From Oceanospirillaceae bacterium (GTDB lineage Bacteria; Pseudomonadota; Gammaproteobacteria; Pseudomonadales; Balneatricaceae), in the NCBI GenBank assembly GCA_013215375.1, contig JABSRB010000032.1, positions 1 through 44,981 on the forward strand: a stretch of DNA of 44,981 nt, written 5' to 3'. The position numbers and the translations under genes were made by a program. Below, piece by piece: positions 1,078 to 22,615 of the stretch; position 1 is the stretch's first letter, and each line of letters begins with the position of its first letter. The notes under the pieces are model-generated. The model was not told the origin of the DNA. It saw only the letters and a list, made by a program, of their open reading frames with translations, and did no database searches.

Positions 1078-2457
1078 ATGATGAATCCTAGAGATGTTAA
1101 ATCAGTTCAAGATGCAAAAGAAATCGTAGAGCAAAGAGGTCTCAGCCACGTCAAAGTCGGTATTTTTGACATCGATGGGGTCATGCGTGGCAAGTATATG
1201 AATAAAGAAAAGTTTTTTTCCAGTTTAGACTCTGGATTTGCTTTTTGTAGCGTCGTTCTCGGCTGGGATTCAAACGATCAACTGTATGAAAATGTGGGTA
1301 TTGAATTCACTGGTTGGCACACAGGCTTCCCTGACGCACCAGTGAATATACTGCCCCACACTTGCAGAGAGCTTCCCTATGAAGACGATATGCTACTGTT
1401 TATTTGTGAATTTGCTGAAGATGCAGCAAAAATTTGCCCGCGAAACACCTTGTCTCGGGTGCTGAAAAAAGCAGAAGATATGGGCTTCAGTATCAATGCG
1501 GCCTTTGAATACGAGTTCTTCTTATTCAATGAAACCCCCGACTCAGTGAGAGCAAAGAATTATCGCAACTTAGAGCCCATTACGCCAGGCAATCACGGCT
1601 ATTCAATGTTACGTAGCTCAACCCATGCCGACCTCTATCACAGCATCATGCAACTTTCTGAACAAATGGACTTCCCTATTGAAGGACTCCATACAGAAAC
1701 GGGACCAGGAGTCATGGAAGCAGCTCTGAGTGTTTGTAACGCAGCGGATGCTGCCGACAAGGCCGCCCTCTTTAAAACCTTTACCAAAGTATGGGCACAA
1801 CATAACGAGATGATGGCCACTTTTATGGCGAAGTGGTCTAACGATTTCCCCGGCCAGTCAGGTCACATCCATGTTTCTCTCAATCAAACTGACGGCTCAG
1901 GCTCTGCCTTTTACGATCCACAGCAAACACATAACATGAGCAACACTCAACGACATTTCCTCGCCGGTTTGCAGCGTTTAATGCCTGAATTTTTAGCGAT
2001 GATGGCACAGAGCGTCAATGCTTACTCGCGTTTAATCCCTGGGTTCTGGGCCCCCACAGATGCAACTTGGGGTGTAGAAAATCGCACCACAGCACTGCGA
2101 GTCATACCAGGATCTAGCAAATCGCAGCGCATCGAATTTCGCTTAGGCTCAGCAGATGCCAATCCCTATATTGCTTTAGCAGCAGTTCTTGGCGCGGGTT
2201 TGTACGGCATAGAACATAAATTAGAACCTGAGGCTCAAGTCACCGGTAATGCTTACGAGCAACAACACCCTAAATCCCTATCACTGCCTCAAACCTTATC
2301 TGCAGCCGCATTTGCATTCAGTAAATCAACCGCGGCAAGAGAGTTATTTGGCGATGAGTTTGTCGATCACTACAGCGCGACTCGCGAATGGGAACAACGA
2401 GAGTTCAACAAACACATTACCGATTGGGAAATGAGCCGTTACTTTGAAATTATCTAA
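1078..2457 (+). CDS. Glutamine synthetase-family gamma-glutamyl ligase
   Basis: 459-residue ATP-dependent ligase of the GS superfamily, probably joining glutamate to an amine (PuuA/GlnA4/IpuC-like) rather than making glutamine. The GS beta-grasp is suggested by VGIFDIDGVMRGKYM near residue 30. Catalytic-domain motifs follow in order: FEYEFFLF, the HTETGPGVMEAAL substrate and metal segment, HIHVSL for ATP, and the arginine-rich RTTALRVIP and EFRLGSADANPY regions. An aldehyde dehydrogenase and an iron-type alcohol dehydrogenase follow on the same strand, pointing to amine or amino-alcohol catabolism. The start is ATG 1078 (a second ATG follows), with AAAGG at 1063-1067. The TAA stop falls inside the left terminal repeat of the dispersed element at 2454-2623. 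Superfamily is certain; the amine substrate is inferred. Confidence 0.85.
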   Translation: MMNPRDVKSVQDAKEIVEQRGLSHVKVGIFDIDGVMRGKYMNKEKFFSSLDSGFAFCSVVLGWDSNDQLYENVGIEFTGWHTGFPDAPVNILPHTCRELPYEDDMLLFICEFAEDAAKICPRNTLSRVLKKAEDMGFSINAAFEYEFFLFNETPDSVRAKNYRNLEPITPGNHGYSMLRSSTHADLYHSIMQLSEQMDFPIEGLHTETGPGVMEAALSVCNAADAADKAALFKTFTKVWAQHNEMMATFMAKWSNDFPGQSGHIHVSLNQTDGSGSAFYDPQQTHNMSNTQRHFLAGLQRLMPEFLAMMAQSVNAYSRLIPGFWAPTDATWGVENRTTALRVIPGSSKSQRIEFRLGSADANPYIALAAVLGAGLYGIEHKLEPEAQVTGNAYEQQHPKSLSLPQTLSAAAFAFSKSTAARELFGDEFVDHYSATREWEQREFNKHITDWEMSRYFEII

Positions 2458-2623
2458 CCCAGATATTACATGCAATGCCGTGATGATAGCGCCGCTAATT
2501 GTTTTTACAGGTTTTTTTTCGATTGAGCGCCGTACTGGTACGTCCGGTTGATTGAGAAAGAAAGTCTGCAAAAACAAGAAGCAAGCTAGAGCACGAGCAA
2601 TTGCTTACAATATTCGGGATAAA
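2454..2623 (+). repeat. Dispersed TIR element, copy A
   Basis: About 170 bp, matching the reverse complement of 19352-19522 with roughly 85-90 % identity by eye. Both ends carry an imperfect terminal inverted repeat close to TTAAYYCGRRTATTG-N4-CAA. Inside, TTGTTTTTAC and its near complement GCAAAAACAA can pair, so the whole element can fold into a long hairpin. No ORF. It begins on the stop codon of the ligase gene and separates it from the aldehyde dehydrogenase gene. MITE-like or REP/BIME-like; I cannot name the family. Confidence 0.8.
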
Positions 2624-2669
2624 GTACAAACTTATTTTAGATCACCATAAATACGACAAAGAGTGACAT

Positions 2670-4061
2670 ATGAGCAATTTACAAATCACTGTTTCACCCA
2701 TAGATGATTCAAACTACGTCTCTAGAGAACAAGCCAGCAGCCAGCAGATAAGTCACTGCTCTGAGTCTGCATTTACCGCACAGAAACAGTGGCGGGAAGT
2801 CTCTATCGCAGAACGTGCCAAAATTTGCTACAAAATGATAGATCTGTTTGTTGCGCAAAAAGAACAGATAGGCAAAGAGTTAACTTGGATGATGGGTAGA
2901 CCCATCCGCTACGCACAAGGCGAAGTAGCCGGCATGCAGGAGCGTGCTCTGCACATGATTGATATTGCTGAGCAATCCCTTGCCACCGTTAAACTTGAAG
3001 ACAAACCAGGATTCACTCGTTACATTAAACGCGTACCACTAGGTGTGGTATTTGTCATCGCACCTTGGAACTTCCCCTATATGACGGCTATTAACGCGAT
3101 AATGCCCGCAATAATGGCGGGCAATAGCGTTATTTTAAAACACTCTGCACAAACCCCTCTGTGTGCGGAACGACTTTATCAAGCATTTGATGAAGCCGGG
3201 CTCCCCAAGGGGGTATTTCAATTTTTACATCTCTCGCATGATGCTACTGCCAGTCTCATTCAAGATCCCAAAATAGATCACGTCTGTTTTACTGGCTCAG
3301 TGGATGCTGGCGCCAGTGTTGAGAAATCTGCCGCAGGACGATTTATTGGCTTAGGCTTAGAGCTGGGCGGAAAAGATCCAGCTTACATTCGTGCAGATGT
3401 TGACCTAGATGCCGCAGTCGAAACAGTCATCGATGGCGCTTTCTTTAATTCTGGGCAGTCTTGCTGTGGCATTGAGCGCATTTATGTTGACGCAACCATT
3501 CACGATCAGTTTATAGAAAAGGCCTGCGCGTTGATCAACCAGTATCAACTAGGTCGCCCCGACGATAGCAACACTACTTTAGGGCCAATGGTAAAAGCCA
3601 GTGCCGCAGATTTTGTTCGCGAGCAAATCAAGCAGGCTGTCGCCCAAGGTGCAACCGCTCATATCGATGAAAATAACTTCCCAATGAGCAAGCCTGGTTC
3701 TGCTTATTTAGCACCTCAGCTATTATCAAATGTGGACCACAATATGATGGTGATGACACAAGAGTCTTTCGGCCCAGTGGTCGGCGTACAGAAAGTTGAT
3801 TCTGATCAGCAAGCTATTGCGCTAATGAACGATTCAGAATTTGGCTTAACAGCCTCGATATTTACGCGCGACATAGAGACGGGCATCGCTCTCGGTGAGC
3901 AGCTTGAAACAGGCACTTTCTTTATTAACCGCTGCGATTATTTGGATCCAGCACTCGCTTGGACGGGCGTGAAAAACTCAGGCCGTGGCTGTACCCTTTC
4001 GAGCATGGGTTACGAGCAGCTAACACGTCCTAAATCTTTTCATATTAAAACCGAGCTATAA
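2670..4061 (+). CDS. Aldehyde dehydrogenase family protein
   Basis: 463-residue NAD(P)-dependent aldehyde dehydrogenase, cytosolic, oxidising an aldehyde to the acid. Motifs in order: VIAPWNFPY near residue 130, the FTGSVDAG cofactor loop, the general-base glutamate E231 in LELGGKDP, the catalytic cysteine C265 in GQSC, and ESFGPVVG near residue 370. The 34-residue spacing between E231 and C265 is normal for active ALDHs. The length is at the short end, like succinate-semialdehyde and lactaldehyde-type members. It starts at ATG 2670 after a GAG-type ribosome site. Placed between a gamma-glutamyl ligase and an alcohol dehydrogenase, it probably performs the final oxidation of a gamma-glutamylated aldehyde; that substrate is inference. 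Confidence 0.9.
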   Translation: MSNLQITVSPIDDSNYVSREQASSQQISHCSESAFTAQKQWREVSIAERAKICYKMIDLFVAQKEQIGKELTWMMGRPIRYAQGEVAGMQERALHMIDIAEQSLATVKLEDKPGFTRYIKRVPLGVVFVIAPWNFPYMTAINAIMPAIMAGNSVILKHSAQTPLCAERLYQAFDEAGLPKGVFQFLHLSHDATASLIQDPKIDHVCFTGSVDAGASVEKSAAGRFIGLGLELGGKDPAYIRADVDLDAAVETVIDGAFFNSGQSCCGIERIYVDATIHDQFIEKACALINQYQLGRPDDSNTTLGPMVKASAADFVREQIKQAVAQGATAHIDENNFPMSKPGSAYLAPQLLSNVDHNMMVMTQESFGPVVGVQKVDSDQQAIALMNDSEFGLTASIFTRDIETGIALGEQLETGTFFINRCDYLDPALAWTGVKNSGRGCTLSSMGYEQLTRPKSFHIKTEL

Positions 4062-4114
4062 TAAAATAATAAAAAATCGCTCTCACTATGTACCCTATTT
4101 GTAAGGAGGCACAC

Positions 4115-5284
4115 ATGTCTTACCAAAATTTAAATGGCAACTGGAATTATCCTAACAAAATCCTCACGGGTGCCGGTCGCATCCAAGAGTTAGCCACTAG
4201 CGCGAAAGAGCTCGGCATGCGCTCACCACTCCTAGTCACTGACTCTGGTCTTGCATCACTACCTATGGTGCAAGATGCGATTAACCTGTGCATCGAAAGC
4301 GGCTTGAGCTGTGGCCTATATAGCCAAATAAAGTCAAACCCCAATGGCGACAATGTCATGGATGGTGTAGCCGCCTATCACGCAGGCAATCACGATGGCA
4401 TCATTGCCTTTGGCGGAGGCTCAGGCCTTGATGCAGGCAAGGCAATTGCGTTAATGGTCGGCCAAGACCGCCCCCTATGGGATTTCGAAGATATTGGGGA
4501 TAACTACCTGCGAGTCAACGAGGCGGGGGTTGCCGCTATTATCGCCATTCCCACTACTGCAGGCACTGGTTCTGAAGTGGGTAGAGCATCGGTGATCACC
4601 GATGAAGACGCTCATATCAAACGTTTAATCTTTCATCCGCTGATGCTTCCTAGCATCGTAATTTTAGACCCGCAGCTGACTGTTGGCCTGCCGCCACATA
4701 TTACTGCCGCGACCGGTATGGATGCACTTTCACACAACTTAGAGGCACTCTGCTCGCCTTTTTATCACCCACTTGCTGAGGGAATCGCCGTTGAAGGCAT
4801 ACGCTTAGTGAAAGAATATTTACCTCGCGCAGTTGCAGATGGAACGGATATAGAGGCGCGAACCCATATGTTAGTCGCCTCCACTATGGGTGCTACAGCA
4901 TTTCAAAAAGGGCTCGGTGGCATGCACGCACTCGCGCACCCTCTGGGAGCTCTATACGACGCTCATCACGGTTTATTAAATGCTATTTTGATGCCCTATG
5001 TGCTGCAGGCAAATAGAGAGGTAATCAGTCAGCGTATCGAGAGACTAGCCCGCTACATAGATTTACCTGACTGCACGTTTGATGGCTTTTTAGCTTGGGT
5101 ATTAGACATGCGCAGCAAACTAAAAATCCCTCATACACTCGCTGAAATTAATATAGATGATCAACAGCAGAGCTTAGTAGCTGTAATGGCAACAGAAGAC
5201 CCATCTGCGGCGGGAAATCCAATTAAATTCACCGCAGATCAATATCAACAAATATTTATTAATGCGGTGAAAGGAAAATTGTAG
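4115..5284 (+). CDS. Iron-containing alcohol dehydrogenase
   Basis: 389-residue group III (metal-dependent) alcohol dehydrogenase, cytosolic, interconverting an alcohol and an aldehyde with NAD(P). The GGGSGLDAGKA nucleotide loop lies near residue 97, PTTAGTGSEV follows, and metal-binding histidines sit in MHALAHPLGALYDAHHG. I chose ATG 4115 because AAGGAGG lies at 4103-4109, five bases upstream; an in-frame ATG at 4088 has no such site. The gene lies 53 bases after the aldehyde dehydrogenase, consistent with an operon. It would supply the aldehyde that its neighbour oxidises. It ends against a tandem-repeat hairpin shared with the convergent LysR gene. Confidence 0.9.
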   Translation: MSYQNLNGNWNYPNKILTGAGRIQELATSAKELGMRSPLLVTDSGLASLPMVQDAINLCIESGLSCGLYSQIKSNPNGDNVMDGVAAYHAGNHDGIIAFGGGSGLDAGKAIALMVGQDRPLWDFEDIGDNYLRVNEAGVAAIIAIPTTAGTGSEVGRASVITDEDAHIKRLIFHPLMLPSIVILDPQLTVGLPPHITAATGMDALSHNLEALCSPFYHPLAEGIAVEGIRLVKEYLPRAVADGTDIEARTHMLVASTMGATAFQKGLGGMHALAHPLGALYDAHHGLLNAILMPYVLQANREVISQRIERLARYIDLPDCTFDGFLAWVLDMRSKLKIPHTLAEINIDDQQQSLVAVMATEDPSAAGNPIKFTADQYQQIFINAVKGKL

Positions 5285-5286
5285 AT

Positions 5287-5372
5287 CGTTAGTCGTTAGT
5301 CGTTAGTCGTTAGTCGTTAGTCGTTAGTCGTTAGTCGTTAAGTTTATAACTAACGACTTCAGACTAACGACT
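5287..5372. repeat. (CGTTAGT)7 tandem repeat with inverted copies: convergent terminator-like hairpin
   Basis: Seven perfect 7-bp CGTTAGT units run from 5287 to 5335 with a degenerate eighth to 5342. They start two bases after the alcohol dehydrogenase stop. Two reverse-complement units (ACTAACG at 5349-5355 and 5363-5369) follow, so the RNA can form several alternative hairpins. The convergent LysR gene ends at 5379. Likely a bidirectional transcription stop with an unstable repeat number. Confidence 0.8.
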
Positions 5373-5378
5373 ACATCT

Positions 5379-6332
5379 TTAATCCCCCACCTTAATATCC
5401 GCCATCATCCAGGGAAAATTAGTACTGATTACGTTCTCATACTTTTGCGTTAATATGCGCCGACAATCATTGGCGATATCTCCAGGTAAATCTCCCAACT
5501 CACGCTCTCGACTCACTAAATTTATTTGCCTACTCAAAGGCTCATCCAAAGCGAGAAGCTGCACTTGATGCTGCTTGATACCACTTTGAAATAAACATAA
5601 TGGCGTGGTAATAGTGCAGCCTATCCCTGATGCCACAGCAGCGACTACTGCAAACGAATTGTCTAATTGTAAATGCGCTGCGGGGTCCAGTTGATTACGT
5701 CGCAAATATTTTTCAATTTTCTGTGCGATCAGTGTCCCTGATGAGTAGCGAATAAGATGATACTGCTTTAAGACACTAACGATATCCTTACTCCCAACAT
5801 AGTCATTAGGCACCGCCAGCACAAAAGGTTCTGTTAAAATCCGATGCCGCGACAGACCCGAGTAATCATCCAGTGGATCATCTGAGATAGTAATATCAGC
5901 CTGCTTCGACAACAACATATGGGAGTGAAGATGAGATTGGCCTGAGACCACCGACCAATTTTGCGTACGATTATTAATAACATCAATCAGAGGTTTACCC
6001 ACTGCAGTGATAATCGAATCTACTAAGGCAACTTTTACGTGACGCAGTAATTTATAATCGGCTTTACGCATTTCTAGGCTAGTCGTTTCAGCAGCATCAA
6101 TAATACTTTGGGCACGATCGTAAAAAAAACGCCCAGCAGAAGTCACAGCCATAGGCCTTACAGACCTATCCATCAATTCAACCCCCAGGGACAACTCAAG
6201 CTGAGTGAGTATTTGCGACACTGAAGATTGTGACAGAGCCATTCTACTGGCTACCGTAGTAAGGTTGCCAGTTTCTACCACTAAGATGAAAACGCTTAAT
6301 GATTTAAGCTCAAACCCAAAAGATGGCGACAT
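5379..6332 (-). CDS. LysR-family transcriptional regulator
   Basis: 317-residue LysR-type regulator. The N-terminal winged helix-turn-helix is seen in SLSVFILVVETGNLTTVASR and MALSQSSVSQILTQLE (residues about 11-47), and the PMAVTSAGRFFYD hinge follows near residue 62. The remaining residues form the usual effector-binding periplasmic-binding-protein-like fold. It is convergent with the ligase/ALDH/ADH set and the only regulator beside it. A dyad of LysR-site geometry lies before the ligase at 873-893, so control of that set is plausible but unproven. The effector cannot be read from sequence. Confidence 0.88.
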   Translation of the reverse strand: MSPSFGFELKSLSVFILVVETGNLTTVASRMALSQSSVSQILTQLELSLGVELMDRSVRPMAVTSAGRFFYDRAQSIIDAAETTSLEMRKADYKLLRHVKVALVDSIITAVGKPLIDVINNRTQNWSVVSGQSHLHSHMLLSKQADITISDDPLDDYSGLSRHRILTEPFVLAVPNDYVGSKDIVSVLKQYHLIRYSSGTLIAQKIEKYLRRNQLDPAAHLQLDNSFAVVAAVASGIGCTITTPLCLFQSGIKQHQVQLLALDEPLSRQINLVSRERELGDLPGDIANDCRRILTQKYENVISTNFPWMMADIKVGD

Positions 6333-6432
6333 TCACTATTCCTGAAAAACTTATAATTTAGAAGCTTAAGTTTATAACAGGCGAAGATAACTGTAAGTTA
6401 AAATTGTTGCTTTGTTAGCGCTTTAGATCAAT

Positions 6433-6467
6433 TTAATCCGAGTATTGCATGCAATCTTCGGATTAAC
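6433..6467. repeat. Lone palindrome matching the TIR of the dispersed element
   Basis: AATCCGA at 6435-6441 pairs with TCGGATT at 6458-6464 around a perfect ATTGCATGCAAT centre. Each half fits the terminal-repeat consensus of the 170-bp element, so this looks like two ends fused without the core. It overlaps the kinase stop codon region and may act as a hairpin 3' end, although no T-run follows on either strand. Confidence 0.6.
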
Positions 6468-8478
6468 TCACCCGCATATCCGGAACAGCATCATCAGTAT
6501 CATGTTTGCCCTCTTGAAAAACCGGGGCTATCAACGGTAGCTCAATCGTAAATACAGTTCCCTCCCCCTCGGTTGAGTTCATCCAAATTTTACCACCTAA
6601 AATACTGGTCATAATGTTATGCACTATATTTAAGCCTAGCCCAGTACCGCCTGATCCGCGTCTGGTGGTGAAAAATGGCTCAAATATCTTATCGATGTTA
6701 GCAGCGTGAATACCTTTGCCTGTATCGGTAAAGGTTATCTGTACTTTATCTTCATCCAACTGGCCTATACCAATAAACACTTCTCCTCTCTCTTCATTAT
6801 CATAGCCGTGAGTTAAAGCATTGGCGGTTAGGTTAGTTACTACTTGCGCTAAAGAGCCAGGATAGCTGTCTAGGTTTATTCCCTCGGGAATATCCTGCTC
6901 TAACTTATGATGTTTATAAGTCGGCGCCAAAGTAGCTAATAGCTCTGCAACCATCGTTTTTAGATCAAAACTACGACGTTTAGAACTCACTTGATCAGCG
7001 GACACTTGCTTAAAGTTTTGCACCAAATCTGAGGCGGTCTCTAAGGTTCTACCCATCAAAACAGTGGCCTCTCCCACTCTTGAAATAAAGTGTTCCAAAG
7101 TATTTTTAGTCAACTTACCTTCAGTCATCAAACTATCAATTTTCTTATGTTCTGCTTCAAGAGCTGAATTCACCGTTACACTAATACCAATCGGAGTATT
7201 AATTTCATGGGCAACACCCGCTACTAACCGTCCTAAAGATGCCAATTTTTCAGTTTCTACCAAAGACTGTTGCGCATATTTCAGATCTTGAAAAGCGACT
7301 GCAAGTTTAGTATTGGTTTCTTTTAGGCTCTCGGTGCGCTTGATGACCTTCTCTTCTAGTTGATTGTTGAGTGAGGTCAACTCTAGTTCTGCAGTTTTTA
7401 GCTCTGTCACATCGTTGCCAAAACCAATCATGAAACGGATGGTGCCTGAATCGTAAAATGGCGCAAAACTCCAAATCAAAGTATTATTTTTTCCTGTTGA
7501 ATCATTCAACTGTAATTCAATGCTTTCTATAGATTCATATTTTTTTAATACGAGCGATAGCTGCTCCGTCTTATCTTCCTCGACAAATATGGACAGCCAA
7601 TCTTTACCGATGATGTTATCAACAGCTAAGCCACTGATTTCAGAACCTGCGGCATTGGTTGAATCAATGGTCAAATCACTGTTCAAACAACAAATAATAG
7701 TATTAGAGTAACTGATAACTGTTTTAGAAAAGTCACGCTCATAGGCTAGCTTTTCATTCACTAGCTGACGGGCGTTAAATTCTGAAATGGTCTTAGCTCT
7801 GGCAAAGTTAAAAGAATCAGCCAAGACATCTAGTTCATTATTTCTCTTGCGATCAGCACGACCATCCAATACAAGCGGCTTCTCCGACCCATCTGGACTC
7901 GCGGTACGAATATAGTCAACCATTTTTACAATGTGGCGGATAACAACTTGATGAAATAGACCTAGGATAATAATAGAAAGTAATAGTGAGATGATTATTT
8001 GACTTGATACAGCGTATATAATTTTGTCGATCAAACGTGCGTATACGCCATCTAAACTTGCAAAAATTTCTAACTGGCCTACTTCAGCGCCTTGATATTC
8101 CAAGGTAAAAGATCTGCCAAATGAGTTATCAATAGGTTCTACACCCACTTCAGACAGTACTATATTTACATTTTCTATAGTCTCGCGAATGCGCACATAT
8201 TGAATATCAGGGAAGTCTAGAATGCCATCAATCTGCACGGCAATTTGAGCTTCGTTGAGGTTCCAGACACTGACTGCAACTGACTGGCCAAAACTGGTAT
8301 AAATATTATCTATGTTTTCGAGTATTTGCTCTCTATCTGTTTGGTATTCCTGATATAAACTAAAACCCGAGGTGAATATAGCGAATAGAAAATTACAGAT
8401 AATGATAAAGAACAGCAATCGATAGGAGAGGCCTTGGCGGGGCATAAACTCACTGTTTGAAGTACTAAATTTAATCAT
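6463..8478 (-). CDS. Membrane PAS-containing sensor histidine kinase
   Basis: 671-residue sensor kinase in the inner membrane. The first transmembrane helix is near residues 20-42 (LLFFIIICNFLFAIFTSGF) and the second near 157-178 (IIISLLLSIIILGLF), enclosing a periplasmic sensor of about 115 residues. A HAMP-like linker, a PAS domain (about 250-360, ending in an MIGFGNDVTELK PAC-type segment) and a coiled coil follow. The H-box is LVAGVAHEINTPIG, with the phospho-accepting histidine in AHE. The ATPase has the N-box NLTANALTHG and the DTGKGI and GGTGLGLNIV motifs. No response regulator gene is adjacent, so it is an orphan and its signal is unknown. The coding end touches a palindrome at 6433-6467. 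Confidence 0.9.
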   Translation of the reverse strand: MIKFSTSNSEFMPRQGLSYRLLFFIIICNFLFAIFTSGFSLYQEYQTDREQILENIDNIYTSFGQSVAVSVWNLNEAQIAVQIDGILDFPDIQYVRIRETIENVNIVLSEVGVEPIDNSFGRSFTLEYQGAEVGQLEIFASLDGVYARLIDKIIYAVSSQIIISLLLSIIILGLFHQVVIRHIVKMVDYIRTASPDGSEKPLVLDGRADRKRNNELDVLADSFNFARAKTISEFNARQLVNEKLAYERDFSKTVISYSNTIICCLNSDLTIDSTNAAGSEISGLAVDNIIGKDWLSIFVEEDKTEQLSLVLKKYESIESIELQLNDSTGKNNTLIWSFAPFYDSGTIRFMIGFGNDVTELKTAELELTSLNNQLEEKVIKRTESLKETNTKLAVAFQDLKYAQQSLVETEKLASLGRLVAGVAHEINTPIGISVTVNSALEAEHKKIDSLMTEGKLTKNTLEHFISRVGEATVLMGRTLETASDLVQNFKQVSADQVSSKRRSFDLKTMVAELLATLAPTYKHHKLEQDIPEGINLDSYPGSLAQVVTNLTANALTHGYDNEERGEVFIGIGQLDEDKVQITFTDTGKGIHAANIDKIFEPFFTTRRGSGGTGLGLNIVHNIMTSILGGKIWMNSTEGEGTVFTIELPLIAPVFQEGKHDTDDAVPDMRVS

Positions 8479-16976: not shown

Positions 16977-17773
16977 AATCTATCTCTCACATAAAACCGT
17001 TGAATATAGAGCACATAACTGCTGCGAAGTTCACATTTCCCGCCGTTGTTCAGCCCATTGATGCACTCTTTATAAATGAACTATTCAGTCATTACCAATA
17101 CTATAAAGAAAAGATATAGTAATGATTTAAAACAATAACCTGCAAAATTGACCGCCAGTATGGTCAACGCTATATAATTTTAACGCCTTGCATTAGATAT
17201 TGTGGCAAATTGACAAAATGCAATTGGGAATCATTAGAATAGGACCAACATTTCCCACTATTTCAAGCTGGTATCTTATTTTCTAAGCGCTGGCGCAAGC
17301 TTAATTTATACTATTGATCTTTTTTCAGAAAAGCCGAAAACCAGCCAAATGCATTTCTCAAAGCTTCCCTAGCGGATCGCGACGACTACTTAACCAAGCA
17401 GTTACCGCCGCTAAAATTATATTGATAAAATAACCGAGTAAATGTAGTACGCATTTTTATTAATTTATTCTATTGAGCCTAAATCAATTCTTTTAAAAAC
17501 AAAAAATAACTAATTGTATTAAAAGACTTATTTTTAATTAGCTGTCCTATAATGATATTTATTAACAAAAAATTAATTAATGAACAACAAATATGTATCC
17601 ATTATACTATTGATATCGACCTCTCATTAATATTATATTCACTAACAACAATAATGAACAAAAGATAAACATCAATAGAACACTGATAATATCCGTAAAA
17701 GACTCTTAGCTTAAAGTAAAGGATCCATCCAACACGCTCCTCTGAGACTTTTACGCTATTAAGGAGAGTAAAT
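16977..17773. other. Long AT-rich intergenic region
   Basis: About 800 bases between the divergent moxR operon and the DUF3135 gene, without a credible gene. It becomes very AT-rich after 17400. It contains the promoter-like dyad at 17148-17178 and the good ribosome site AAGGAG (17761-17766) of the next gene. The remainder shows no clear repeat or RNA motif. Confidence 0.55.
17148..17178 (+). promoter_or_regulatory. Promoter-like site with dyad TTGACC-N8-GGTCAA
   Basis: TTGACC at 17148-17153 and TATATA at 17171-17176 are spaced by 17 bases, close to the sigma-70 consensus; TATAAT overlaps at 17173-17178. The -35 element is half of a perfect 6-bp inverted repeat ending at 17167, as expected for a regulated promoter. 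No gene follows for 600 bases. Confidence 0.35.
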
Positions 17774-18139
17774 ATGTATGAACTACCTAGTTTTGACAAA
17801 TTAGTAGCTCTTAACCAATCAAACCCCGAAGCCTTCGAGACATTACGCGAGCAACTGGTTGACGGCTACATTGATACGGTCCCTACTGAGCGCCAACACC
17901 GCTTGCAAGGATTACAATTCCATATTAATTCTCGCCGCGATATGGCAAGCAATCCACTGGATTCTTGTATCTCTCTCTCTAGAATGATGCACGAAACATT
18001 TTGGGATATGCACACATCACTTGAAGATCTGTCGAACTTAACCAGCGATAATAATTCACACGCCAGCTTGATCGAAACTCAGCGCCTATTACTTGATAAA
18101 AAGCCCGCCGAAGTATTGCAACTCAATATGCATCACTAG
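17774..18139 (+). CDS. DUF3135 domain protein
   Basis: 121-residue soluble protein. LPSFDKLVALNQSNPEAFETLREQLVDGYI, the RQHRLQGLQFHI segment and NPLDSCISLSRMMHETF follow the pattern of DUF3135, a small gammaproteobacterial family without known function. The family part covers about residues 3-80; the C-terminal tail is less conserved. AAGGAG at 17761-17766 supports ATG 17774. Monocistronic, ended by the strong hairpin at 18147-18180. Confidence 0.8.
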   Translation: MYELPSFDKLVALNQSNPEAFETLREQLVDGYIDTVPTERQHRLQGLQFHINSRRDMASNPLDSCISLSRMMHETFWDMHTSLEDLSNLTSDNNSHASLIETQRLLLDKKPAEVLQLNMHH

Positions 18140-18146
18140 TTTCCCC

Positions 18147-18180
18147 GCTAGTGCTAGCCGATATCTTAGCTAGCACTAGC
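18147..18180. terminator. Bidirectional hairpin terminator
   Basis: A perfect 12-bp stem, GCTAGTGCTAGC at 18147-18158 with its complement at 18169-18180, and a 10-base loop. It lies between the convergent DUF3135 and VanZ-like genes (stops 18139 and 18183). A short pyrimidine-rich run follows on the plus strand. Shape and place fit a shared terminator. Confidence 0.75.
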
Positions 18181-18182
18181 AC

Positions 18183-19283
18183 CTACTCTTTCTTGCTAAA
18201 ATCCAACAGCGCTAGTAGCTGTACATAAACAACATACATAATCGCTCCAAACACCCCACCCAGTGCATTTAGATACAAATCCCTCAAGCTTGAATGCCTT
18301 GTAATCAACCAAGCCTGACGATATTCGATAATAAAACTCAGCAGAAATCCACATAGGAACGTAGCTGCCAACAAAAGACCAAAGCGACTTAACTCATGTT
18401 TAAAACTCACCGGAATTTTAAACATCAGTGCCGCGATCAAAAAACCAAAAGGAGCAAAACCTAAAAAATTCAATACTATATCCTTCAACGCACTCCCTGA
18501 GTACAGATTAAATGATTCATTACCAAACAGGCGGTGTTTTAACAAAGCCACTTCCCTAGGTATATACAACCAACTATTCGCCACATTATCCAAGGCGTTT
18601 TCAAGTGAGGCGTCAAATTTTATTTTCTCAAAACCAGGCATTGGCTCCAGCGGCAATACTGAGAAGCTGCTAATAGCCCCATGCCAGTTATTCTCAAGCA
18701 GCTCAGAACCAGATAACAGTAATCTAACGCCTAATTCACTATTGGGCAGGTTAAAAATTTTCGTGGCTTTTTTAACTTTCTTTTTACCATTCAAACTCAA
18801 CACCGTTGTTCCAGAGGTCACGGTTAACTTTAACTGTTGATAGCCTCTATTAGGCTCGGTAATTTTTATCCTTAAACGGGGTTTCTTTTGCCGATAATTG
18901 TAATCATCACCATTCATCACAATGATATAATCTCGAACTTGAGCAATCACAAATTGCTCAGCTGCGTTACCATTGGATAACAACATCAAAAATTGAAAAT
19001 TATGTTTAACGAAAGATAGCGGGGAAAAAGTTAAGCGAACTTCAAAGCCGCTTGTATTGAGTCTATTAATCATCGAGTGGCTGATGGTTTGTTTCGAGTA
19101 TGCGAGCCCTCGTTCACCAAAAAACAGAGCATTATCAGCGACAGAATACCGAACTTGGTTCTCTGACGGTATATCATCCTTTAGCCCCATATAGAGCATA
19201 GCGGTAATGACTATCATCAAATACATGCACAATAGCCTTTTACTCTCCAACCAAGAAACCATGTTTATATCTCTAGTGTGCAT
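18183..19283 (-). CDS. VanZ-like membrane protein with lectin/LamG-like domain
   Basis: 366 residues. An N-terminal transmembrane helix (LLCMYLMIVITAMLYMGL, about 17-34) leads to a beta-rich extracytoplasmic region of about 180 residues resembling a concanavalin/LamG-like fold. The C-terminal third has four hydrophobic helices and the VanZ-type pattern (LNFLGFAPFGFLIAAL, EYRQAWLITRHSSLRDLYLNALGGVFGA). VanZ was first seen in teicoplanin resistance, but most homologues have unknown roles; the lectin-like insertion suggests glycan contact. A downstream start at 19259 is equally possible. Located after repeat copy B. Confidence 0.75.
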   Translation of the reverse strand: MHTRDINMVSWLESKRLLCMYLMIVITAMLYMGLKDDIPSENQVRYSVADNALFFGERGLAYSKQTISHSMINRLNTSGFEVRLTFSPLSFVKHNFQFLMLLSNGNAAEQFVIAQVRDYIIVMNGDDYNYRQKKPRLRIKITEPNRGYQQLKLTVTSGTTVLSLNGKKKVKKATKIFNLPNSELGVRLLLSGSELLENNWHGAISSFSVLPLEPMPGFEKIKFDASLENALDNVANSWLYIPREVALLKHRLFGNESFNLYSGSALKDIVLNFLGFAPFGFLIAALMFKIPVSFKHELSRFGLLLAATFLCGFLLSFIIEYRQAWLITRHSSLRDLYLNALGGVFGAIMYVVYVQLLALLDFSKKE

Positions 19284-19351
19284 TATAAAACAGTAAGTTG
19301 TAGCTAGCCTTTTATCTCACGCTCAATTAGCGCCTTAGGACTTTAAAAGTA

Positions 19352-19522
19352 TTTAACTCGAATATTGTACCCAATTGCTCGTGCCCTAGCTTGCTCCTTG
19401 TTTTTACAGACTTTTCTTTCTCAATCAACCGGACGTACCCGTACGGTGTTCAATCAAAAAAAAGCCGGTAAAAACAACTAGCGGCGCTATCATCACGGCA
19501 TTGCATTCAATACCCGGGTTAA
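19352..19522 (-). repeat. Dispersed TIR element, copy B (inverted to copy A)
   Basis: About 171 bp, aligning along its whole length with copy A at 2454-2623 in reverse orientation with few gaps. Terminal repeats are clearer here: TTTAACTCGAATATTG at the left and the complement of TTAACCCGGGTATTG at the right. A perfect internal inverted repeat, TTGTTTTTAC and GTAAAAACAA, flanks the middle. No ORF. It lies between the modF stop and the VanZ-like start, both minus strand. Confidence 0.8.
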
Positions 19523-19557
19523 TAGTTCTGTTTAAATATTGTTATTCAAACCAGCCA

Positions 19558-20997
19558 TTACAATTCAGCATTATTACTGGCGTTTTTAGTCATTTCCTTA
19601 TAACGCTCTATACCCGCGATAGCATCTTCGCGGTGATGATTCACATACAGTACTGTCGACTGGCCACCGGCACAGATCTTTTCTATCAGAGCTAATACCA
19701 GCTGCCTATTTATATCATCAAGACCCAAACATGGCTCATCTAATATCAATAATGGAGGATGTTTTACCATCGCTCTCGCTATTAATAATAAGCGCTGATC
19801 ACCGAAAGACAACTTATTAAAACTTACATCAGCTCGATCATCCATTCCCAACAACACCAGCCACTGATCAGCTATCGTTTTTTGATTGTCACTCGCTTTA
19901 GTGTACAAACCTATGCTGTCGTAAAATCCAGAGACAATGACATTACGCAGGCTAGTACCCACCCGATACTCCCACTGCAAAGCGGTAGAAACGTAACCAA
20001 TATACTGCTTAATCTGCCAAATACTCTCACCACTGCCTCTTTTAAAACCAAATACAAATATATCGTTAGAGTAACTCTGGGGGTGATCGCCCGTAATCAG
20101 CGACAAGATTGCTGTTTTTCCACTGCCATTTGGTCCACTTAACTGCCAGTGCTCGCCAGGATTAATTTGCCAATTAAAATCTTCAACAATTTTAACTTGA
20201 TCGTACTTCACAGCAATATCGGTGAGTTTTACCAAAGGTTGCCCTGGATCTAAGCCCTGTTTAATCGTGCTTATATCCGTCACTGGTATTTGCAAATCGC
20301 TGGTTTTTATATGCAAGAGCTGCAACAACTCTCTGCTTGCCTGCTGATCCGTTAACGCGGCAGTATGGGCTAATGTCCCCTGCTGCATATAACCTAAGTG
20401 AGTAATAAACGCAGGTATCTCATCGCACCTATTAAGTACCATTAAAATATTAGTCTGTTTTGACAACTGCGTTAAATAGTTTTGTAACATAGCCAAAGTA
20501 TTGGCATCCAGCCCATCAAAGGGCTCATCGAGTATCAACAACTCAGGCTGGCTAGCCATCGCTTTGATCAATAAAACCTTACGTGTTTCACCCGTTGATA
20601 AAGCTCTAAAAGATCGCTCCAGCAAATATTGCAGCTCAAACTTAGCCAGTAAATCGGCAATTTCTTCAGCAGCACTACCGTCCTCTGCTAATATTTCAGC
20701 CACCGTTGTCCCCACTGCCACCACATCCATGATGTCAGCATCGTCCTTCTTACGCTCACGCTCAATTAATAGCGCTTGTGCCTCAAACGACACCAACGCA
20801 ACTTTATCGGGAAGCCCCAGCAGCTCACCTGTTAACTTATCACCAAAGCCTGCGAGGATTGCTACCAGCGCTGATTTACCCGAACCGTTAGCACCGGTAA
20901 TCACCCAGTGTTGAGTATCACTAATCGTCCAATTTATATTTTTAAGTTCAAAGCGCTGGTCAAAATCAAACCCACAGTTAATTAATTCAATATTCAT
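19558..20997 (-). CDS. modF: ModF-like tandem ABC ATPase
   Basis: 479 residues with two ABC nucleotide-binding domains and no membrane part. Domain 1 (about 1-225): Walker A GANGSGKS, signature LSTGETRK, Walker B LLILDEPFDGLD. Domain 2 (about 250-470): Walker A GPNGSGKT, signature LSFGDQRL, Walker B LLILDEPCLGLD. This layout matches ModF, sometimes called PhrA, found near molybdate transport genes in E. coli; the real role is unclear. No molybdate genes are near here, so ModF is a family label rather than a demonstrated function. Confidence 0.82.
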   Translation of the reverse strand: MNIELINCGFDFDQRFELKNINWTISDTQHWVITGANGSGKSALVAILAGFGDKLTGELLGLPDKVALVSFEAQALLIERERKKDDADIMDVVAVGTTVAEILAEDGSAAEEIADLLAKFELQYLLERSFRALSTGETRKVLLIKAMASQPELLILDEPFDGLDANTLAMLQNYLTQLSKQTNILMVLNRCDEIPAFITHLGYMQQGTLAHTAALTDQQASRELLQLLHIKTSDLQIPVTDISTIKQGLDPGQPLVKLTDIAVKYDQVKIVEDFNWQINPGEHWQLSGPNGSGKTAILSLITGDHPQSYSNDIFVFGFKRGSGESIWQIKQYIGYVSTALQWEYRVGTSLRNVIVSGFYDSIGLYTKASDNQKTIADQWLVLLGMDDRADVSFNKLSFGDQRLLLIARAMVKHPPLLILDEPCLGLDDINRQLVLALIEKICAGGQSTVLYVNHHREDAIAGIERYKEMTKNASNNAEL

Positions 20998-21027
20998 GCA
21001 AACACCTTCAAAACAAAATCAAGACCA

Positions 21028-21058
21028 AAAAAAACCAAGATAATTTCTTGGTTTTTTT
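21028..21058 (-). terminator. Intrinsic terminator of ilvC
   Basis: A 13-bp perfect stem (A7CCAAGA at 21028-21040 pairing with TCTTGGT7 at 21046-21058) and a 5-base loop. Read on the minus strand it follows the ilvC stop (21140) by about 80 bases and ends in a T-run. It precedes modF, so the two genes are probably transcribed separately. Confidence 0.85.
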
Positions 21059-21139
21059 AATCCCTAGCCTAACAAGGTCAGACTTAACTTGAAGTAGCTA
21101 CCACTTAATAGCACCAACTACTTCAGCTTAGAGACAAAA

Positions 21140-22615
21140 TTAAACGATAGCTTTCATGTCAGACATGTGACCACGTAAGATACCACCGATAGTTTCAACG
21201 GGATGCTCGCGCAAAGCAGAGTTTACTTCGATCAATCTGGCATTATCAACGCCGTTGTCATCGTTAGTGGTGCCTTTACCGATAACATCGGTATCGATAT
21301 TCTTCATGAAGTCCGCAAGCAGTGGCAGACAAGCGTGGTTATACAAGTAGCAACCGTATTCAGCAGTATCAGAAATAGTCGCGTTCATCTCGTACAATTT
21401 CTTACGCGCGATAGTGTTAGCGATTAACGGCGTCTCATGTAGCGACTCGTAGTAAGCAGACTCAGCGATGATACCTGCAGCAGTCATCGTTTCGAATGCT
21501 AGCTCAACACCGGCTTTAACCATCGCCACCATCAAGATACCGTGATCAAAGAACTCTTGCTCTGAAATTTCAACATCGCCAGCAGGCGTCTTTTCGAATG
21601 CTGTCTCAGCGGTGTCTGCACGCCATCCTAAAAGATTCGCATCATCGTTAGCCCAGTCAGCCATCATGCCTGAAGAGAAAGTACCGTCGATGATGTCATC
21701 TTGATGTTTGTTGTAAAGTGGGCGCATGATTAACTTAAGCTCTTCAGCCAAATCAAATGCTTTGATTTTATCTGGGTTAGACAGACGATCTAGCATATTA
21801 GTCACGCCGCCGTACTTAAGCGCTTCAGTAACCACTTCCCAGCCGTATTGAACAAGCTTAGAGGCATAACCTGCATCAACACCCTTCTCAACCATTTTGT
21901 CGAAACAAAGGATAGAACCGGTCTGCAACATACCGCAAAGGATAGTCTGCTCGCCCATAAGGTCAGATTTAACTTCAGCAACGAAAGAAGACATCAATAC
22001 GCCTGCTTTATGCCCGCCTGTACCCACAGCGTATGCTTTAGCAAGCGCTAGACCATGGCCTTGTGGATCGTTAGCTTCGTGAACAGCGATCAGTGTTGGA
22101 ACACCGAAACCACGAACATATTCTGCACGTACTTCAGTACCTGGGCACTTAGGTGCAACCATGATGACAGTTAAATCTTCACGAATTTTCATGCCTTCTT
22201 CAACGATATTGAAACCGTGTGAGTAAGAAAGGCAAGCACCTTGCTTCATTAGCGGCATAATAGCGTTAACAACAGGAGTATGTTGCTTATCAGGTGTTAA
22301 GTTAAGAACCACATCCGCAGTAGGGATAAGCTCTTGGTAAGTACCAACCACGAAACCGTTCTCTGTGGCGTTCTTCCAAGATTGGCGCTTCTCATCGATT
22401 GCCGCTTGACGCAATGTGTAAGAAACATCTAAACCGCTGTCGCGCAGGTTAAGACCTTGGTTAAGACCTTGAGCACCACAACCTACGACAACAATTTTTT
22501 TACCTTTTAACGCATCAACGCCTTCAGTAAATTCGTTTAAGTGCATAAAGCGACATTTGCCTAACTGTTCAAGTTGGTCGCGTAACGTAAGAGTGTTGAA
22601 GTAATTATTAGACAT
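21140..22615 (-). CDS. ilvC: Ketol-acid reductoisomerase (class II)
   Basis: 491 residues, the length of the E. coli enzyme. It converts acetolactate or acetohydroxybutyrate to the dihydroxy acid in valine, leucine and isoleucine synthesis, using NADPH and Mg2+. The N-terminus [21 protein letters not shown] is almost the E. coli one. [19 protein letters not shown] is the NADPH loop; [11 protein letters not shown] and the duplicated C-terminal catalytic domain define the long class II form. I chose ATG 22615 over 22621 because GGA then sits at a normal distance and the length fits. ilvB/N are not adjacent. Confidence 0.96.

Follow-up and report, generated by a model that had tools for sequence, protein, structure and literature searches.

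We identified two inverted copies of a short gene-less mobile element in a contig from an Oceanospirillaceae bacterium (JABSRB010000032.1, positions 1 to 44,981; this whole stretch of 44,981 nucleotides is referred to as the window), and copies of the same element are scattered in the rest of its genome and in related animal symbionts. The pair very probably represents a non-autonomous MITE that is mobilised in trans by a DDE transposase of the IS1380 family. The element shows the features of a MITE, since it is short, multi-copy and without a transposase gene and has terminal inverted repeats and a target duplication. A probable partner insertion sequence (IS) carries the same ends in relatives, exactly so in the family that includes Endozoicomonas (f8, 37 genomes) and nearly so in the Osedax symbiont Rs1 (G003). 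The original prediction had proposed a MITE or BIME-like family moved by a transposase elsewhere, and its MITE reading is supported by the multi-copy spread, the target duplications and the IS with nearly the same ends. The features in the window are as follows.

2454..2457, left target duplication of copy 1, CTAA, the last three bases of which (TAA) are the stop codon of a glutamine-synthetase-like gene (1078-2457)
2458..2618, + strand, MITE copy 1, 161 bp, non-coding, a single long hairpin
2619..2622, right target duplication of copy 1, ATAA, one base different from CTAA
6433..6436, target duplication of the palindrome, TTAA
6437..6462, 26-bp palindrome, two element ends back to back
6463..6466, target duplication of the palindrome, TTAA; the stop codon of a histidine-kinase-like gene (6463-8478, - strand) lies within it
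18183..19283, - strand, VanZ-like gene, neighbour of copy 2
19353..19356, target duplication of copy 2, TTAA
19357..19518, - strand, MITE copy 2, 162 bp
19519..19522, target duplication of copy 2, TTAA
19558..20997, - strand, ABC-transporter gene, neighbour of copy 2

With their borders, the two copies (2454-2622 and 19353-19522) align in opposite orientation with 89% identity across the element, at the positions originally given for them, and the similarity ends sharply at either edge, at YTAR borders. A larger ordinary duplication was rejected because the similarity stops at these YTAR edges. The terminal inverted repeats are CCCGGATATTGCAT and, as reverse complement, CCCGAATATTGCAC. When the copies were laid out with their flanks, the element proper was seen to begin at CCCG, and the outer CTAG, CTAA or TTAA was mostly equal on both sides. 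The terminal motif first described for the pair was therefore correct except for its first four bases (TTAA/CTAA), which are the target duplication and lie outside the element. Folded as RNA, the two copies form hairpins of -59.3 and -67.2 kcal/mol (z -6.0 and -7.1), and none of 200 shuffles was equally stable; copy 1 folded as DNA gave z -4.0. The expectation that each copy forms one long hairpin was thus borne out, with both folds far beyond shuffles. It had also been suggested that the inverted copies might mediate inversion of the 17-kb segment between them. This found no support, as the segment is colinear in the congeners G001, G002 and G004, each of which has all flanks on one contig and in a single orientation. 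Elsewhere in the window, positions 5286-5340 hold 7.9 copies of the heptamer tandem repeat TCGTTAG, and this stretch has matches in G004, G005 and G002.

A BLAST search of the window's own genome (G000; 5.0 Mb in 96 contigs, a draft 95% complete) returned 31 rows, of which 27 were separate copies (L001-L027) with 74-100% identity, the remainder being the short form L028 and reverse self-matches or a fragment. Matches occurred in six of 57 genomes including G000, namely G000, G001, G003 and G004 within the genus and, weakly, G010 and G042. The element accounted for 7 of the 9 rows in Rs1 and for at least 36 of the 46 rows in Oceanospirillaceae DT_74 (G004, a draft 93% complete), the latter being a minimum since the scoring covered 40 of 101 first-look candidates. 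The exact 23-base end pattern matched 12 stretches in the genome contig database, ten from DT_74 and two from Rs1, although records of or near the window genome may be absent from this database. A 19-base end with two mismatches allowed matched 12 of 293 genomes of the order, and only G000 more than once. The element of G042, a genome of f8, follows the same plan at 67% identity to the genus element; used as a query, it matched 17 of the 37 f8 genomes with up to 40 rows in one, where the rows include fragments and reverse self-matches and the matches in G331 and G333 are weak and perhaps IS ends. No plasmid matched the genus-type element, and the f8 element had one partial match, on an Endozoicomonas plasmid. 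Further copies therefore exist in the genome and in relatives (27 in G000, others in G003, G004 and f8) and the flanking similarity does not continue, these being the two points on which the original prediction could have failed.

The copies are bordered by a 4-bp duplication of the form YTAR. Identical 4-mers flanked 15 of 26 copies in G000 (shuffled mean 4.7, 0 of 5000 shuffles as high; L023, whose left end is missing, was dropped and L028-L030 were not used), 9 of 12 in G003 and G004 together (shuffled mean 4.3, p 0.003) and 14 of 26 in f8 (shuffled mean 8.9, p 0.003; 26 of 30 loci scored, with the partial L249-L251 counted as mismatches). Pooled over all sets, identical 4-mers were present at 38 of 64 copies against a shuffled mean of 16.3, and the target-site duplications looked for are thus present above shuffles. 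CTAG and TTAA are palindromic; where CTAA or TTAG stood at either border, nine copies had direct and three had inverted repeats. Inverted YTAR flanks were found in 3 of the 64 copies (L078, L245 and L258) and also at the IS L115.

Genes flanking the two window sites were found in all six congeners when 1078-6900 and 17700-21500 of the window were searched, and no element was detected between the neighbouring genes at either site in any of the six, the intergenic DNA of these congeners having diverged too far for the exact empty site to be read. The glutamine-synthetase gene of G001 has the identical terminal sequence gaaattatctaa and is not followed by an element, which indicates that copy 1 inserted into a CTAA that includes the stop codon. 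Because YTAR contains TAA or TAG, a stop codon can serve as the insertion site and be restored in the process; the stop codon lies within the target duplication at both copy 1 and the window palindrome. In G004, a different copy sits just upstream of the same glutamine-synthetase gene.

None of 44 sites in G000 (27 full copies, three mid-size forms and 14 palindromes) lay inside an ORF of at least 90 aa. A few ORF ends overlap an element edge, at most by 119 bases of a 100-aa ORF (L013). Since this test alone cannot detect split genes, a neighbour-domain test was added, in which Pfam was run on the neighbours of the 17 of 44 sites that are flanked on each side, at no more than 130 bases, by ORFs of the same strand. 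No split gene was apparent in any of the 17 pairs and no split domain was shared. The neighbours matched different Pfam families in 15 pairs; at L202 both begin with a pilin N-terminal motif and are two genes, and at L207 one neighbour has no Pfam match.

The YTAR duplication together with CCCGGATATT ends is a combination that we take to point to IS1380. A search for PF13701 over the 57 genomes gave six matches in Rs1, four of them full ORFs, and none in G000, G001, G002, G004, G005 or G006. G000 and G004, the genomes richest in the genus-type element, are both without a match, possibly owing to loss of the transposase or to assembly gaps. For the transposase predicted to lie elsewhere, an IS with nearly the same ends was thus found in relatives, but not in the draft genome of the window itself. 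The four full ISs of Rs1 are 1719-1720 bp long, have the ends CCCGCATGTTGCACC and CCCGCATATTGCATG and are flanked by the duplications CTAG, TTAG, CTAG and CTAG. Their transposase, of 464 aa, scored 468 bits with PF13701 and 381 bits with the IS1380 model NF033539 (cut-off 180). The transposases of these IS1380 copies (L113, L125, L131 and L134) are identical, which suggests recent activity. Compared by eye, the left end of the element differs from one end of the Rs1 IS (ATTGCATG) at one of 15 bases, and the right end of the element from the other (TTGCACC) at two of 15.

Transposases of this type also occur in f8, where PF13701 is above cut-off in 22 of the 37 genomes. Both ends were near CCCGGATATTTCAT in 8 of the 12 PF13701 loci read (L265, L289, L267, L268, L290, L269, L270 and L292), three others had one such end and L118 had none. 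The MITE and IS ends in f8 are both CCCGGATATTTCATAAA, so that from one lineage to the other the ends change along with the local IS. The duplications of five of the seven f8 ISs cut out were identical (TTAG, ATAG, CTAA, CTAA and CTAA), those of L270 and L292 being one base off. Transposases of the Rs1 lineage and f8 are about 53-55% identical. Across f8 the presence of the element and that of the IS agree only in part: both are present in G254, G324 and G321, many ISs with no strong element match were found in G330, G331 and G333, and in G293, G323 and G328 there are 33-40 element rows alongside PF13701 matches that are few or fragmentary. That f8 includes Endozoicomonas is seen from the IS L265 of G254, which shares 99.8% identity along its whole length with a plasmid (CP092490.1) of Endozoicomonas sp. 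Mp262. The interior of the element was also considered as a deletion remnant of these ISs, which found no support, since only the ends, up to about 24 bp, match convincingly in comparison with 14 ISs (15 loci were given, and L269 was not cut).

RNAalifold placed 61 pairs in 22 distinct f8 copies, with 97.0% of cells paired, and found 20 pairs with double changes in 43 cells, where 300 shuffles reached at most 11 and 16. Among 36 distinct genus copies there were 4 such pairs in 8 cells against shuffle maxima of 6 and 7, which is no clear signal, and the 58 copies combined gave 25 pairs and 353 cells against 23 and 151. All such counts are inflated by relatedness and could result from arm-to-arm correction as well as from selection. 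The sample came from 40 genus loci (38 cut, 36 distinct) and 30 f8 loci (24 cut, 22 distinct). Judging from these alignments, hairpin pairing is maintained through compensatory changes in f8, and we limit this claim to f8. If the element were instead a structured RNA, or a regulatory hairpin of the ERIC or terminator type, that serves neighbouring transcripts and has spread only incidentally, this would account for the very stable fold, the f8 covariation beyond shuffles and the position of the sites between genes, some of them touching stop codons. Nevertheless, we consider this explanation very unlikely, as the YTAR duplications and the IS1380 ends are signs of transposition, congeners have no element at the window sites, covariation within the genus is weak and the only Rfam match at gathering score over the window was a tRNA, with no family for the element. 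A terminator and promoter scan around copy 1 found none within the element and one terminator-like site outside it. It is possible that the hairpin has a job on top of mobility.

The f8 consensus has one open frame with codon-position contrast (permutation p 0.013, best of three frames), in a test that is confounded by the hairpin, and the genus consensus has a TGA in the corresponding frame and no such contrast; a coding element is therefore not claimed. A longer f8 subfamily of about 215 bp (L294-L305), with some 50 extra bases, has a frame that is open through most copies.

The 19-base end pattern also gave pairs of matches 7 bases apart, which proved to be 26-bp palindromes. The one at 6437-6462 is a third member of the family in the window, beyond the pair originally noted. 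With up to three mismatches, palindromes were found in G000, G004, G003 and G118 and not in G001, G002, G005, G006 or G042, and a reversed control pattern gave 0 in all nine genomes. We read 36 sites with their flanks, 14 in G000 (L235 being doubtful), 20 in G004 and one each in G003 and G118; 6 of the 19 G000 loci examined gave none, in a search for 26-bp forms only. Identical 4-mers flanked 11 of the 36, and 101 of 144 flank positions matched directly against 82.7 after shuffling (0 of 2000 as high), compared with 90 inverted matches (p 0.097). The 14 sites of G000 and the 20 of G004 do not coincide, L200 and L211 flanking one gene, and the four congeners examined where the window palindrome lies (G002, G004, G005 and G006) have none there. 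A comparison that included 9 of the at least 36 full copies of G004 showed no place occupied by a palindrome in one genome and by the full element in the other. Mid-size forms (L038, L040 and L043) also exist.

The explanation that we favour for these palindromes is deletion in place between copies of a short repeat, helped by the hairpin. A repeat of 6-7 bp is present at the junction that would give the 26-mer in 23 of 36 full genus copies, and of 2-4 bp in the other 13. In f8 the repeat at the same junction is only 2 bp in 21 of 22 copies, and a palindrome occurs in one of the 37 genomes, though full copies are many. An A/G difference between the palindrome arms (21 of 33, leaving out L235, L194 and L197) resembles that of the element ends (27 of 36), which is a weak argument. 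A bolder reading is that the palindromes are themselves mobile as two abutting 13-bp ends with IS1380-type recognition, the hairpin of the full element being kept as a transposition substrate. This seems unlikely to us, but if true such palindromes, with 4-bp duplications at unrelated sites, would be about the smallest DNA transposon conceivable. That the 26-bp forms are instead operator sites of a regulator, unrelated to transposition, might be thought from their perfect or near-perfect symmetry, their position between genes and the empty reversed control in nine genomes; this is highly improbable given that their flanks match directly above chance, that the sites of G000 and G004 differ and that palindromes occur only in genomes holding the full element.

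Two other sources of mobility were weighed. A partner from the IS5 group would also duplicate YTAR, the motif given for IS5 in passages of PMC10359306, but the ends of the element match IS1380 elements in two lineages and vary between lineages with them, and an IS5-group transposase is scarcely credible as the partner. Spread as a REP- or BIME-type repeat by a RAYT (IS200/IS605-like) enzyme, suggested by many palindromic copies between genes and by 26-bp forms that resemble REP units in size, is almost certainly wrong, and with it the BIME-like alternative of the original prediction, because both the 161-bp and the 26-bp forms have a 4-bp target duplication and the ends are those of a DDE-transposase IS.

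Under the preferred explanation, a MITE with an IS1380-family partner, the transposase would move the elements in trans, presumably by cut-and-paste. Insertion into YTAR would duplicate 4 bp and may regenerate a stop codon, and selection would leave only copies outside genes. The interior would be a base-paired arm that is not derived from the ISs seen. Old copies would lose this interior by slippage-type deletion between TGCAAT repeats near the ends, giving the 26-bp palindromes.

The analysis ties a repeat shared by relatives of the Osedax symbiont and the Endozoicomonas family to IS1380 transposition, and this repeat was not found in the literature searched. No MITE with IS1380 ends appears in the portions consulted of PMC4133298, PMC10813416, PMC10359306, PMC5240137, PMC9330008, PMC3281130 or PMC3542288, and searches for Endozoicomonas with MITE or IS1380, and for IS1380 with direct repeats or CTAG, found nothing. 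Two lineages whose ends vary with the local IS provide a natural test of end recognition. The series of 161 bp, about 60-76 bp and 26 bp suggests how hairpin elements erode, and the leftover palindromes could be mistaken for operators or terminators.

Compared with known systems, the element is similar to the ERIC, Correia and nemis repeats, which are also bacterial intergenic hairpin repeats of about 100-200 bp. Those repeats are bordered by TA, whereas the element described here is bordered by YTAR. For Correia (CREE) elements, an excerpt of PMC9330008 likewise gives a target that is mostly TA. IS1380 transposases serve as an outgroup to piggyBac, which targets TTAA, according to part of PMC10813416; TTAA is among the targets here, but the element is bacterial and uses YTAR rather than TTAA only. 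With IS1380 itself (NF033539, PF13701) it shares the ends and YTAR of the IS copies found here, and it differs in having no transposase and a length of about 162 bp rather than about 1.7 kb. A 5-bp duplication is given for IS1247, a member of the IS1380 family, in a section of PMC3281130, and 4 bp is therefore not universal in this family. MITEs are defined, in the relevant parts of PMC4133298 and PMC3542288, as short and gene-less, with IS-like terminal inverted repeats, a target duplication and many intergenic copies. The element shares with type I MITEs its short size, lack of a gene, IS-like terminal inverted repeats, duplication and copies between genes, and is set apart by its IS1380 partner, an interior unrelated to the ISs seen, a single paired arm and 26-bp end-dimers. 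Overall, the repeat is a well-supported member of a familiar class of elements, in which its partner family is uncommon; its hairpin is maintained in one lineage, and its 26-bp derivative is unusual.
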